This document shows positions 21,085-25,595 of a DNA stretch of 32,077 nt, piece after piece. The DNA is taken from the NCBI GenBank assembly GCA_016219225.1, contig JACRBX010000261.1, positions 1 through 32,077 on the forward strand, given 5' to 3'. The position numbers and the translations under genes were made by a program. Origin of the DNA: Deltaproteobacteria bacterium. GTDB lineage: Bacteria > Desulfobacterota > RBG-13-43-22. The notes beneath the pieces are model-generated. The model saw only the letters and a list, made by a program, of their open reading frames with translations, was not told the origin of the DNA and did no database searches. How positions within the stretch are numbered: position 1 is the first letter of the stretch; every line of letters begins with the position of its first letter.

Positions 21085-22389
21085 TTACTCCGTCAATTCC
21101 GGAAGATCAAGCAGAAAACGCCATATGGGGACCACCTCAATGGCCCCATCAATCCGTTCGACATCGTTCCGGGTCACAATGGTTCCGGTCTTGAGATTTA
21201 GTTCGGCCATCGCTTCGCTCAGAGCCGCAACCTCCCGCTTCCTGGTCTGCGGTCCGGTCAGAGACTCGCACACCTGGAACAACATCGGCTTGCGGTTCTG
21301 TCCCGAAACGATGAAATCGACCTCCTTGCCGATCTTCGTTCTGTAATAGAAGATCTCCGGATAAAGACGACGCAGGGCCGTGAAGGTGAGATTCTCCAGG
21401 AGATGTCCGGAATTAACCAGAATCCCAGACGACACTGAACTGACCAGGGCGTGATCAATGCAATAAATTTTTTTCGGATTAGTGTTACTGCGCATTAGCG
21501 ATGCGTCGAATAGCCGCACCGTAAAGAGGAAATAGGCGTCTTCAAACCATTCCAGGTAATCCGCCACTGCCGACTTGGGGGCCTTGTGACCCAACGATTT
21601 CAGGTATCCTGTCAGTCTATTGATAGAATACATGGAGGCCGTGCTGTCCACAAGCCAATGGGCGAGATCGGACACCGCCTTGGGATGGGAGATGTCGTGA
21701 CGCTCGATCAAGTCCCTGAACATTATGGTGTGAAAATATTCCTGATGGATCTTGATTCTTAAGATTCGGCTAAGGCCGGCAACCTCGGGGAAGCCCCCGG
21801 TTTCCCAGTATTCTTCAAAGGCCCTCTGGATGAGGAGACGCTTCTTAGTCGATAGGGGACCTACGCTTTCGATACCCTTGTAATCCAGAAATTCTCTGAA
21901 CGAGAAGGGAAACATCTCCCATGACAACGCCCGCCCGCGCATTTGAGTGGCAATTTCCTTTGAAAGCATCTGCGACGATGATCCCGTGAGATAGACCTGA
22001 CATTTCTCGGTCCGCATGAGCCGGTCCATGAAAGGCTCCCAGCCGGGAATAGCCTGGATTTCGTCGAAAAAACAATAAACCGTCTCGGTATTTTTCTTCT
22101 CCGGATAAATCGAAAAGTAGGCTTCGCTGATCAACCCGAGATTGTCCTCTCGAAGGTTATGGAGACGGTCGTCGAAGAAATTAAGGTATAAAATATTTTT
22201 TACCGAAACTCCACTCTCCAGAAGCCGCTGGATGACTTGAAACAGGTAGGTGGACTTACCGCCTCGGCGCACACCGATGCAGACAGCAGCCTTTCCCGGC
22301 ACCGCTTCGATACGTAAGCGTCGGGGGACTCCAGTCTGTTGATGAACCTCCTGGAAGTCAAGGATGATGGACTTGATCGTCTCTTTCAT
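21085..22389 (-). CDS. AAA ATPase with DUF4143 C-terminal domain
   Basis: The 434-residue protein has an N-terminal AAA domain with P-loop GVRRGGKST (39-47), Walker B YCFFDEIQAIPGW (105-117), sensor-like YLTGSSSQML and RGRALSWEMFPFSFREFLDY. The DUF4143 part (about 200-420) ends in a PD-(D/E)xK-like pattern (YYRTKIGKEVDFIVSG...LFQVCES). The family is widespread, often patchy and in many copies; no firm function is known, though nuclease-like or conflict-related roles have been considered. A sigma70 promoter overlaps a long palindrome directly upstream, so expression is probably self-limited. Length is normal. Next to it is an intact IS. Confidence 0.9.
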   Translation of the reverse strand: MKETIKSIILDFQEVHQQTGVPRRLRIEAVPGKAAVCIGVRRGGKSTYLFQVIQRLLESGVSVKNILYLNFFDDRLHNLREDNLGLISEAYFSIYPEKKNTETVYCFFDEIQAIPGWEPFMDRLMRTEKCQVYLTGSSSQMLSKEIATQMRGRALSWEMFPFSFREFLDYKGIESVGPLSTKKRLLIQRAFEEYWETGGFPEVAGLSRILRIKIHQEYFHTIMFRDLIERHDISHPKAVSDLAHWLVDSTASMYSINRLTGYLKSLGHKAPKSAVADYLEWFEDAYFLFTVRLFDASLMRSNTNPKKIYCIDHALVSSVSSGILVNSGHLLENLTFTALRRLYPEIFYYRTKIGKEVDFIVSGQNRKPMLFQVCESLTGPQTRKREVAALSEAMAELNLKTGTIVTRNDVERIDGAIEVVPIWRFLLDLPELTE

Positions 22390-22398
22390 TGAATAATC

Positions 22399-22450
22399 CT
22401 GGATATATTTATTACCGATTAAGCCATTAACCGGTAATAAATATATCCAG
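22399..22450. promoter_or_regulatory. 19-bp-arm palindrome (probable operator) of the ATPase gene
   Basis: CTGGATATATTTATTACCG (22399-22417) and CGGTAATAAATATATCCAG (22432-22450) are a perfect inverted repeat. After one mismatch, pairing continues (TTAA/TTAA) to a 4-nt loop, so 23 of 24 positions pair. The right arm contains the -10; the left arm lies in the leader, 9 nt before ATG. Confidence 0.85.
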
Positions 22451-22468
22451 TTTTAAATATATTGTCAA
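22440..22468 (-). promoter_or_regulatory. Sigma70 promoter of the ATPase gene
   Basis: TTGACA (plus 22463-22468), 17 nt, then TATATT (plus 22440-22445) on the minus strand. The -10 is embedded in the palindrome. Confidence 0.75.
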
Positions 22469-22567
22469 GCCTTTTCCCGGACTCGACTAAATCCTTTCTC
22501 TCGTCGGCTACAGGAATGGAAAGCTGGGAAAGGCGATAAAAGGACATCCTGGAAGGGTACGATTTCG

Positions 22568-22629: not shown

Positions 22630-24348
22630 TTATTTAAACTCGAGATTTAACTTGGCGCCATCGAGCCAGGAGAGGGTCTGAGGAAGACGGGGCCAAGGAA
22701 CATTACGCAAAATAGGATTATGAGCTTGTCGTGGATAAGTAACCAGGATTTCCTCGCCTTTGATTCGAACCGTACCTTTGCCTTTTACGAAATGGCGATA
22801 AATTGTTGGGGCATCACATTGTTCGAATCCTCTAAGTTTTTGTGCCAGCATACTATAGAGGGTATCAGCCATCATGGTCATAAGAACATCAAAGTGGACC
22901 TTGACCAGAATAGGAGACGACAGGGCATTGAGATGGAAGAATTTAACCGCTTCGGAAATCACATTTTCGACCCGCCACCTTCTGGCATAATCTCCCACCA
23001 GGCGCTCCACCGGGGAACTGAAATCATTGGAGATGAGGAAGGCCGGCTCTTCCCGGCCATTTCCCCTGATGATAACCTGTCGAAGGGTTCCTTCGTAATC
23101 CCCCAGGGTAATCTCCGATTGATGAACCAAAGGGTTGGGGTATTTCCGTTTGTCGTGGGGGATATGGATCTTGTCCCAGGGTTTGAGCTTATCCAGATTC
23201 TCAATCAGTTTTTTCCCCCTTCGTCTAAGGGTAATAAACTTAACTCCTTGCTCATTCAACTGCGAAAGATGTTGGTAGGTCGTGAATTTGGAATCAAAGA
23301 TCAAGGTGGAAGAAACGCCTCTTCTCATCTTTTTCCAGAAGGCCAGAAAGTCCAGAACCTGATCGCTGGCCTCCTCCCATTGAATATCGGCCGCCGTGTA
23401 CAGGATCAGCTTGGAGGAGGCATCTTGGGCCACCAAAGTCAAGGCCCCCTTCATCCTTTTCCCTCTGGCCCCCGCCCAATGTTCCTGAAGAACCGATTCT
23501 TCCCCATAATGGGGGATGGTATGGAAGTCGAGGTTAATGATGTTGCCATCGTACAGGCCCAGGGCAACGGCCTTTTTCACAAACCCTTTCTGAAGGTTCA
23601 GCAAATGGACCGCGTCCAGGGAATAAGAATAGGTCGACATGGCCGTACATTTGGGCAGGACATTAAGCCCAGCCAACAGACCCAGGCCGGGATCGAAGGC
23701 ATGATCACCGATATGAGCGTATCGTTCAGTACCCAAGAGCTTCAGCGCCAGGAAGGACAAAAAGTAGCTTGTGGCCGGAATGATTTTGGTTCCCGGCAAT
23801 CCTGCGGCCCGAATCAATTCCGGCAGATTAAATTTTTCGATAAAGGGGGCAAAAAGGAAGACCCCAGCCGAGGCACATTCATAACTGGACCCATCCAAGT
23901 TTCTGATGGAAATACCCTCCGATTTAAGGGGTACAGCCGCTCCTTTAACGGTCAGGCCGATCTTAAGGCGAGTCCGCCGGGGAAGCTTAGGAAACCCTTC
24001 TTCAGCCAAGACGCGCTCCACGGTTCGGACCGAGATCTCTGTCCCTTCCTCGGAAAGCAATTGAGAGATCTCTCCGGCGGAAAGATGACCCTGCCTCCAG
24101 GTACGGATCTTTTGACGGATTTCATTGGTAACGCGATAACGGGCCGCCGTTCCTTCCGGAACGGGTTCGGAGAAGTCTATCAGGCCGGTCATAAACTGGT
24201 GACGAAGGAGATGAATATATCCTGGGGTGTACCCGAATCGTTCCCCGACTATAGCGGCGGGAAGGCGATCGACAAAGGAAGCTCGTAAGGCTTCATAGCG
24301 CCGTTGCCAGTCATGGACAGGGTTGGTGAAGAAGGCCGCATCCCGCAT
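22630..24348 (-). CDS. DDE transposase, IS4 superfamily-like, with N-terminal HTH domains
   Basis: The 572-residue protein has a first HTH region (about 10-50: AAIVGERFGYTPGYIHLLRHQF), a second helix-turn-helix (about 85-125: LSAGEISQLLSEEGTEISV) and a DDE core: first Asp in IINLDFHTIPHYGEE, second Asp in STLIFDSKFTTY, and the glutamate in YARRWRVENVISEAVKF, a variant of the Y-R-E-K signature of the IS4 superfamily. All catalytic residues are present, so it appears active. I chose ATG 24348, the first position after a near-consensus promoter; the frame is open to 24462 but those codons are AT-rich and unlike protein. The transcript would be nearly leaderless. Exact IS family was not resolved. 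Confidence 0.88.
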   Translation of the reverse strand: MRDAAFFTNPVHDWQRRYEALRASFVDRLPAAIVGERFGYTPGYIHLLRHQFMTGLIDFSEPVPEGTAARYRVTNEIRQKIRTWRQGHLSAGEISQLLSEEGTEISVRTVERVLAEEGFPKLPRRTRLKIGLTVKGAAVPLKSEGISIRNLDGSSYECASAGVFLFAPFIEKFNLPELIRAAGLPGTKIIPATSYFLSFLALKLLGTERYAHIGDHAFDPGLGLLAGLNVLPKCTAMSTYSYSLDAVHLLNLQKGFVKKAVALGLYDGNIINLDFHTIPHYGEESVLQEHWAGARGKRMKGALTLVAQDASSKLILYTAADIQWEEASDQVLDFLAFWKKMRRGVSSTLIFDSKFTTYQHLSQLNEQGVKFITLRRRGKKLIENLDKLKPWDKIHIPHDKRKYPNPLVHQSEITLGDYEGTLRQVIIRGNGREEPAFLISNDFSSPVERLVGDYARRWRVENVISEAVKFFHLNALSSPILVKVHFDVLMTMMADTLYSMLAQKLRGFEQCDAPTIYRHFVKGKGTVRIKGEEILVTYPRQAHNPILRNVPWPRLPQTLSWLDGAKLNLEFK

Positions 24349-24354
24349 GGCGAT

Positions 24355-24383
24355 CTTATATAATATGACGATTAAAATGTCAA
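24355..24383 (-). promoter_or_regulatory. Transposase promoter
   Basis: TTGACA (plus 24378-24383), 17-nt spacer, TATAAG (plus 24355-24360). The -10 ends only 6 nt before the ATG at 24348, leaving essentially no leader and no Shine-Dalgarno. Confidence 0.65.
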
Positions 24384-24670
24384 GTACTATTTTATTAAAA
24401 TAGATCCCCCGGCTTGAATTTATTTTCATACGCTGGCCACAATTGATAATTTTACTTGTCATTACTGAATTATTGGCCTTAATAATAACGTTTTAAAAAT
24501 GAATATTGCTGGGTGTATGAGATTTAATCTATTATATTCCAACTTATAATCGTCACCTTATATAAGATTGACTGGCAGCGAAAAACCGATGCCAATGTTA
24601 ACATATTTAAATCATTTAACTTTTTAAAGATGCGCGCCATAAAATCTGGCTATAAAAGAAAAAACGGGCG

Positions 24671-24757: not shown

Positions 24758-24812
24758 AAACTTAACAAATATGGATTTAATATGAAGTTAAAAATATTAA
24801 AAGGTGGCAACG

Positions 24813-25595
24813 ATGAAGATCAGCAACGAGAAAAAAATGGAAACCCGGCTCAAGATAATCAAGATCGCCGTGGAAATCATCACTGAAAAGGGCCTTAAGG
24901 ATACCACGATGCGGGCCATCGCCAAGGGGGCTGACATCGGGGAAGCGACGATCTATAACTATTTTCCGACCAAGGAATCGATTCTCTTTGCCTATTATGA
25001 GCAACAGCTTCAGACTTGTGCGATGCGGCTTAAATCCATCCGGGGCTTTAATAAATTCACCCTCCAGGAGCAACTGCAAACCTTCCTGGAAACAAACCTG
25101 GAGCTTTTTTTGCCGGACCGGGAGTTTGTCCAGGAGAGCTTTAAGACGATTTTCTTTTCCTTAATCCAACAGGTTAAACAACTGCAGGCCATTCGGGCCA
25201 TTTTTTTCGATACCGTCAACGCCCTGTTCGAGGCCGCCGTGGAAAAGGGAGAAATACCGGAGCAGGTCTTTCAGGAAATACTGGTACAATTTGTTTGGGA
25301 TTATTATATCGGCGTCATTCTCTATTGGTTAAACGACAAATCCGACCAGTTCAATGATACCAGCCTGTTGATCGACAAAAGTCTCAGTCTGGCCACCAGC
25401 TTTCTTAAGGCCGGCATCGTGAATAAAATCTTTGATATCGCCCAGTTTTTATTCAAACAACATGTTTTGACCCGATTTGATTTTTTCCGTCAGCAGGTCG
25501 ACACCCTGCATAAAATGAAACGCGCCTTTATGGATGAAACCGATGAAAAACGAAATACCCCAGGGGAAATGGCGAAGAAGCCTCGCCGGAAGTAA
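24813..25595 (+). CDS. TetR/AcrR family transcriptional regulator
   Basis: The 260-residue protein has the TetR DNA-binding domain at its N-terminus (residues 10-56): IIKIAVEIITEKGLKDTTMRAIAKGADIGEATIYNYFPTKESIL is the classical HTH with its YxYFxxKE end. The C-terminal ligand domain is all-helical and has no recognised signature; it is longer than the 190-220 residues common in the family, with a basic tail (MAKKPRRK). ATG 24813 is preceded by AAAGG at 8 nt; a GTG at 24804 is possible. Its last 62 nt overlap the ABC1-kinase gene, showing translational coupling and suggesting regulation of that gene or a shared process. Confidence 0.9.
   Translation: MKISNEKKMETRLKIIKIAVEIITEKGLKDTTMRAIAKGADIGEATIYNYFPTKESILFAYYEQQLQTCAMRLKSIRGFNKFTLQEQLQTFLETNLELFLPDREFVQESFKTIFFSLIQQVKQLQAIRAIFFDTVNALFEAAVEKGEIPEQVFQEILVQFVWDYYIGVILYWLNDKSDQFNDTSLLIDKSLSLATSFLKAGIVNKIFDIAQFLFKQHVLTRFDFFRQQVDTLHKMKRAFMDETDEKRNTPGEMAKKPRRK

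Follow-up and report, generated by a model that had tools for sequence, protein, structure and literature searches.

Related systems

P1 ParA, DnaA and archaeal Orc1/Cdc6 are ATPases with a DNA-binding part that repress themselves by acting on sites in their own promoters. Toxin-antitoxin operators are likewise autoregulated, as palindromic half-site arrays that lie over the promoter of a mobile gene. The repressor RptR of a phage-defence island is described as a small dedicated protein that represses its own promoter and recognizes 6-bp palindromes arranged in 9-bp direct repeats; these repeated short sites overlap the -10 of the defence promoter and are conserved with the gene across diverse bacteria (PMC12255303). 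One survey (PMC12988326) ranks the putative system PDC-S01 as the fourth most common defence across prokaryotes, and describes it as a single gene, widespread and transferred between lineages, in which an ATPase is fused to a PD-(D/E)XK member; experimental validation is given there as pending for most such candidates, and the survey's account of PDC-S01, in the passages devoted to the system, mentions neither an operator nor regulation.

An ATPase gene of the same design, a widespread and transferred single gene for an ATPase with a PD-(D/E)XK-like domain, is found in a 32,077-nucleotide stretch of the genome of a Deltaproteobacteria bacterium (contig JACRBX010000261.1, assembly GCA_016219225.1), the whole of which is referred to here as the window. 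In contrast to what is described for PDC-S01, its promoter carries an ordered array of half-sites, which is best read as a member of the known class of autoregulatory operators and which draws its weight from the size of the family. The array resembles the RptR sites in that repeated short elements overlap the -10 and are retained with the gene across diverse bacteria, but its half-sites alternate in direction at 16 bp, a separate regulator was not seen, and the array is probably bound by the ATPase effector itself. Unlike toxin-antitoxin genes, the ATPase has no conserved partner gene beside it; unlike ParA, DnaA and Orc1/Cdc6, from which it differs in family by sequence, it has no replication or partition genes conserved alongside (81 loci). 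No published report of such operators was found in a literature search on AAA_14/DUF4143 and PDC-S01 ATPases.

The ATPase gene and its promoter palindrome

The gene (21085-22389, minus strand) encodes a protein of 434 amino acids, in which the only Pfam families found are AAA_14 (PF13173, residues 33-168, 120.3 bits) and DUF4143 (PF13635, residues 225-374, 57.7 bits), both above their curated cut-offs of 27 and 28.1. PADLOC matches residues 33-428 to PDC-S01 (PDLC04787, E 4.9e-104), and by this match to a putative defence system the gene is a candidate anti-phage gene. A helix-turn-helix predicted at codons 256-288 (21526-21624, minus strand; helices 256-265 and 272-288) is conserved within the subfamily and is a candidate for the DNA-binding part. 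The full-length structural model has a pLDDT of 72.8 overall and of about 30-60 at this region, while a model of the fragment, at 60.0 overall, has block means of 71-84 for approximately residues 256-286. The fragment model gave no significant match in a PDB fold search, and the best match of the full model is a DNA-bound Orc1/Cdc6 initiator (2qby, E 3.3e-5), at a low TM of 0.33-0.37. D358 and Q372 are invariant in 81 rows, and C374, which the window protein shares with at least 90% of homologues, takes the place where we would presume the lysine of the PD-(D/E)XK motif (catalytic D ... (D/E)xK) to fall, a lysine that might lie elsewhere, for example at K384. Given a cysteine at this position, one would not begin by supposing that the protein cuts the palindrome.

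The first-pass annotation had drawn attention to a near-perfect 52-bp palindrome at the ATPase promoter, and the palindrome is indeed there (22399-22450), with 19-bp perfect arms, one mismatch, four further pairs and a 4-bp loop, that is, arms of 24 bp each with 23/24 positions complementary. In a scan of the whole window it is the strongest, with a score of 21 against 12 for the runner-up, and a 91-base query around it found no second copy in the 5.9-Mb genome. On the gene (minus) strand a sigma-70 promoter match, with 11 of 12 positions, consists of the -35 hexamer TTGACA (22463-22468), a 17-bp spacer and the -10 hexamer TATATT (22440-22445). The predicted -10 thereby sits inside the palindrome, as the annotation had it, and so does the predicted transcription start at about 22433. 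The further claim that the palindrome forms the mRNA leader needs to be cut back: from a start near 22433 the mRNA would include only the gene-proximal two thirds or so, which rules out the full hairpin in a transcript from the predicted promoter.

Taken together with the homologue upstreams described below, the sequence reads as an operator array of four half-sites, H1 to H4. H1 is CTGG on the gene strand (22447-22450, minus; extended AACTGGATA); H2, inverted, is CCGG (22431-22434, plus); H3 is TCGG on the gene strand (22415-22418, minus), one departure from CYGG; and H4, inverted, is CCAG on the gene strand (22399-22402, plus) and overlaps a weak Shine-Dalgarno sequence, CCAGGA. The -10 falls between H1 and H2. 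An outer half-site, H0, is CCGG followed by GAAAA (22477-22480, minus) and lies ahead of the -35, 30 bp from H1 in the window and 32 bp in most homologues. The gene of a DDE_Tnp_1 transposase (22630-24462, minus) ends about 160 bp from the -35 and leaves H0 and the array intact; beside the transposase gene, and upstream of a TetR gene, an imperfect inverted repeat of about 20 bp can be seen by eye at 24354-24570 (CTTATATAATATGACGATTA / TAATCGTCACCTTATATAAG).

A conserved array with 16-bp spacing in homologue promoters

From a scan of 84,980 species' genomes, which returned 339 related stretches, 80 with 71-83% amino-acid identity were kept; together with the window gene they make up the 81 genes over which the array was counted. 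Their promoters carry a fixed array, CYGG-N12-CCRG-N12-CYGG-N12-CCRG, about 60 bp ahead of the start codon, with half-sites exactly 16 bp apart and alternately inverted. By a strict test (at least 13 of 16 positions, start at -58 to -68) the array is present in 61/81 genes, and matches of 15/16 and 16/16 are reached in 47 and 21 of the 81; upstreams shuffled in 300 rounds gave a mean of 0.01 genes with a strict array and a maximum of 1. The spacing is equally regular, since CYGG/CCRG motifs lie 16, 32, 48 and 64 bp apart in 130, 120, 85 and 24 cases, respectively, against 0.1-0.4 expected. In 56 aligned upstreams the -10 is found between H1 and H2, H4 overlaps the ribosome-binding site, and an outer half-site, CCGGAAA, stands 32 bp before H1 and ahead of the -35. 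Once oriented, the half-sites of 67 arrays have the consensus AACYGGNWA common to all four, H4 being loosest at the outer bases, although H1 and H2 flank the -10 and H4 overlaps the Shine-Dalgarno sequence.

Aligned in this way, the upstreams of the homologues reveal that the element does travel with the ATPase gene, in the form of an array of half-sites at 16-bp steps rather than of a long palindrome. Arm complementarity, 23/24 in the window, averages 14.3 over the 61 arrays. The near-perfect symmetry of the window palindrome is the extreme of a range and no separate feature; what is conserved is the half-site rather than the pairing of the arms. Nor do the half-sites of one array make a concerted choice between C and T (agreement 0.528 against 0.511 when shuffled, P 0.28, 66 arrays); only H2 and H3 correlate, with r 0.53.

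The strict array is missed by 20/81 close homologues. These include L115 and L131, whose array-like sites lie upstream beyond the match start, L096, with an array at -215, and L133, with an array at -1118. One spacing is 15 or 17 bp in L066, L107 and L125, and some of these, L107 not among them, score 15 or 16 once such a spacing is allowed. The L133 locus, from Desulfamplus magnetovallimortis, has about 1.1 kb with a 154-aa frame between array and ATPase start (L133:3883-5000), and its start-proximal operator stretch is present twice.

Spread and surroundings of the gene

On a quick tree of the proteins 22 phylum labels are mixed, with 38 changes against a minimum of 21, a count to be read with the caution that a number of small metagenome contigs must have been mis-binned: the identical proteins of L090 (Desulfobulbus rhabdoformis DSM 8777, a cultured strain) and L091 carry two phylum labels. 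Most of the labels retain the array, and their mixing makes a host regulator common to all of them unlikely. Among 559 flanking frames of the 81 loci there is no conserved neighbour gene, the commonest family, in 10/81 loci, being other ATPases of the same superfamily. Where pairwise DNA similarity extends to the edges of the gene, it seldom continues beyond about 100 bp upstream (95th percentile 100) and, on the 3' side, mostly stops a few bases from the stop codon (median 2). Array matches of at least 14/16 number 118 in the 81 loci, with 103 in the promoter zone and the rest scattered (2 in the gene, 7 downstream, 6 further upstream). The lack of a second array on the 3' side and of a conserved neighbour argues against both a mobility site and a co-encoded repressor.

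A close homologue is present on the viral contigs L220 and L221, and in its promoter all four half-sites read (A/T)AGTGG while the 16-bp spacing is unchanged; because the upstream is shared by both contigs, the half-site change counts as one event. On L220 (1407-9311) the homologue and its own array lie between the genes for the terminase large subunit and the portal protein, a location that fits a self-regulated cassette. Just past the ATPase stop codon, L056 and L089 have longer frames starting M(R)LLLISDTHGKLG, and several other loci have, by eye, seeming truncated remnants of the same gene. The motif suggests a metallophosphoesterase gene, perhaps the ancestral downstream neighbour of the ATPase.

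Specificity of the site

With one mismatch allowed, the array pattern occurs genome-wide at 17 sites, against 5 for a reversed control pattern, and one match outside the window that was opened (L242) lies inside a gene. A relaxed pattern for one H1-H2 unit, applied to five family genomes, recovers the ATPase promoters of G000, G003 and G004. The surroundings of these relaxed 24-mers were inspected at L229, L231-L236 and L238-L241, where scattered matches fall within genes (L235, L239, L240, L241) or between genes (L234, L238). The two intergenic cases, each resembling one H1-H2 unit, are both in the relative G004, so that the site may not be wholly dedicated; to judge from the sequence matches, exclusive use of the array by the ATPase gene is nonetheless likely.

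The same pattern also picks up a dispersed, near-identical 24-mer palindrome, ATCCGGAAATTCRAATTTCCGGAT, with further symmetric flanks, of which G002 has about 15 copies; others are at G000:C220:12795-12818 and G000:C314:10323-10346 and in G001:C26 and G004:C334. Each of the five copies opened (L229, L231, L232, L233, L236) is intergenic, at the end of a gene, or within a short frame of doubtful reality. The repeat has the CCGG half-site and the 16-bp spacing in common with the ATPase operator, was not seen in front of ATPase genes, and is probably a REP-like or MITE-like repeat.

Distant family members

Palindromes with sequences of their own are also seen over the promoters of more distant family members, whose identity is mostly 25-38%. 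The 100 nt before each start were compared with shuffles of the same composition, with a threshold of P <= 0.01; start codons were taken as the first possible ones, which are wrong for some genes. Control genes came from the distant members' loci and from the flanks of the 80 close loci; genes with less than 100 nt of upstream were left out, as were repeated upstreams, and a separate count was kept of genes whose upstream falls inside another gene (3 family, 124 control). Palindromes pass the threshold in 33/106 distant family genes as against 20/343 controls (Fisher P 1e-10). Those of the family are for the most part no more than 46 nt from the start codon, and those of the controls are mostly further up. 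The remaining 73/106 relatives fall short of it, and a promoter palindrome is thus a common, not a universal, trait at the given sensitivity; by the same plain palindrome score, 15 of the 82 family genes at the 80 close loci pass. An earlier comparison across the superfamily (40/86 against 20/129 at a score of at least 8) was discarded on finding family members among its controls.

A paralogue in the window's own genome, L013, has a 36-bp perfect palindrome directly before its start codon, and in L184, the corresponding gene of a congeneric relative, both arms differ while the symmetry is kept. Six upstreams of plasmid-borne relatives have modest palindromes only, the best score being 9 (L223), and viral contigs scanned with three plasmid-borne relatives yielded no match. 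By eye, many of the distant members (L006, L007, L008, L013, L038 and L042-L045) have leaderless-looking promoters, built as TTGACT/A, 17 bp, TAWAAT, about 6 nt and ATG; the palindrome covers the -35 or the -10.

Alternative explanations

An operator for a host regulator, such as a TetR- or Fur-type repressor controlling the ATPase gene and perhaps others, is the rival that deserves the most attention, although we regard it as unlikely. Dimer-type half-sites over a promoter are what any repressor typically has, the window contains a TetR-family gene (24804-25595) at a distance of 2.4 kb, and G004 has its two intergenic look-alike 24-mers. Yet the array sequence is kept over 22 phylum labels with no regulator gene conserved nearby, the transposase gene separates the TetR gene from the ATPase gene, most other inspected pattern sites in relatives are inside genes or in the dispersed repeat, and the paralogues in the window's genome carry palindromes that are different.

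The first-pass annotation had also offered two further readings, and neither fared well. A 5'-terminal mRNA hairpin, hiding the start or protecting the message, might be suspected from the entire 71-nt stretch, which folds far better than shuffles (-32.1 kcal/mol, z -7.9), but the leader from the predicted start, which lies inside the palindrome, folds no better than shuffles do (z 0.0 and 0.8). Pairing across the central dyad, 0.58 in 61 arrays, is at the 0.56 that column composition alone would give, there is no covariation, and Rfam gives no match, so that an RNA role appears very improbable. Scarcely more probable is that the palindrome serves the nuclease-like ATPase for recognition, cleavage or mobility, with gene and palindrome forming a mobile element. 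The gene with about 100 bp is a unit common to unrelated contigs, and close homologues occur in viral contigs, one of them flanked by the terminase and portal genes. The same similarity edges would, however, be left by selection acting on promoter and gene, no array marks the 3' side, where array matches are few and scattered, and the cysteine at position 374 may count against cleavage.

Probable autoregulation by the ATPase

The remaining possibility raised by the annotation, an autoregulatory site, gains support from the retention of the array with the gene. As would be expected of an autoregulatory operator, the site overlaps the gene's own promoter, with the -10 between H1 and H2 and the Shine-Dalgarno sequence under H4, and its spacing and promoter placement are kept with the gene across the labelled phyla. 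Protein binding, the ATPase as the binder, repression as the effect and any inducing signal are what we infer; the palindrome is probably the operator through which the ATPase binds and represses its own gene. The ATPase is favoured as the binder by the mixed phylum labels, the absence of a conserved neighbour, the ends of DNA similarity close to promoter and stop codon, the change of all four half-sites in L220 and L221, the predicted helix-turn-helix and the differing promoter palindromes of distant relatives. The product, an AAA ATPase followed by the predicted helix-turn-helix and then the PD-(D/E)XK-like part, would bind the alternately inverted AACYGGNWA half-sites in 16-bp steps, probably as cooperating dimers. 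Bound protein would cover the -10 and the ribosome-binding site and so repress its own transcription, the pool of free ATPase would set the ATPase level, and anything that draws the ATPase off the promoter, be it a nucleotide state or foreign DNA, would relieve repression.

Several findings weigh against this reading: the low confidence of the helix-turn-helix in the full model, the C/T choice that is not concerted among half-sites, the 73/106 distant relatives below the palindrome threshold, the 20/81 close homologues that miss the strict array, and the look-alike 24-mers in G004. Within the subfamily, moreover, no residue of the recognition helix clearly tracks the half-site variants, and the best columns seem to follow kinship. 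K272R, in 5/81 rows, four of them from Hydrogenedentota (three with altered half-sites, one without a clear array), was considered as a half-site determinant and dropped, the fifth (L130) having ordinary half-sites.

A wider proposal, which we put forward tentatively, is that PDC-S01-type ATPases in general are sequence-specific DNA binders that silence their own gene through a subfamily-specific operator, here by a 16-bp-stepped assembly, and that release on infection could be the sensing event. If so, these ATPases would be self-contained cassettes that need no partner regulator to enter a host of any kind, a phage packaging operon included. The ordered operator would be the first concrete handle on the biochemical function of a very large ATPase family, as it predicts the DNA sequence bound, the stoichiometry (four to five half-sites), the binding domain and a reporter assay for the releasing signal. 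Were self-regulation general, it would help to explain how these ATPases spread so freely as single genes.
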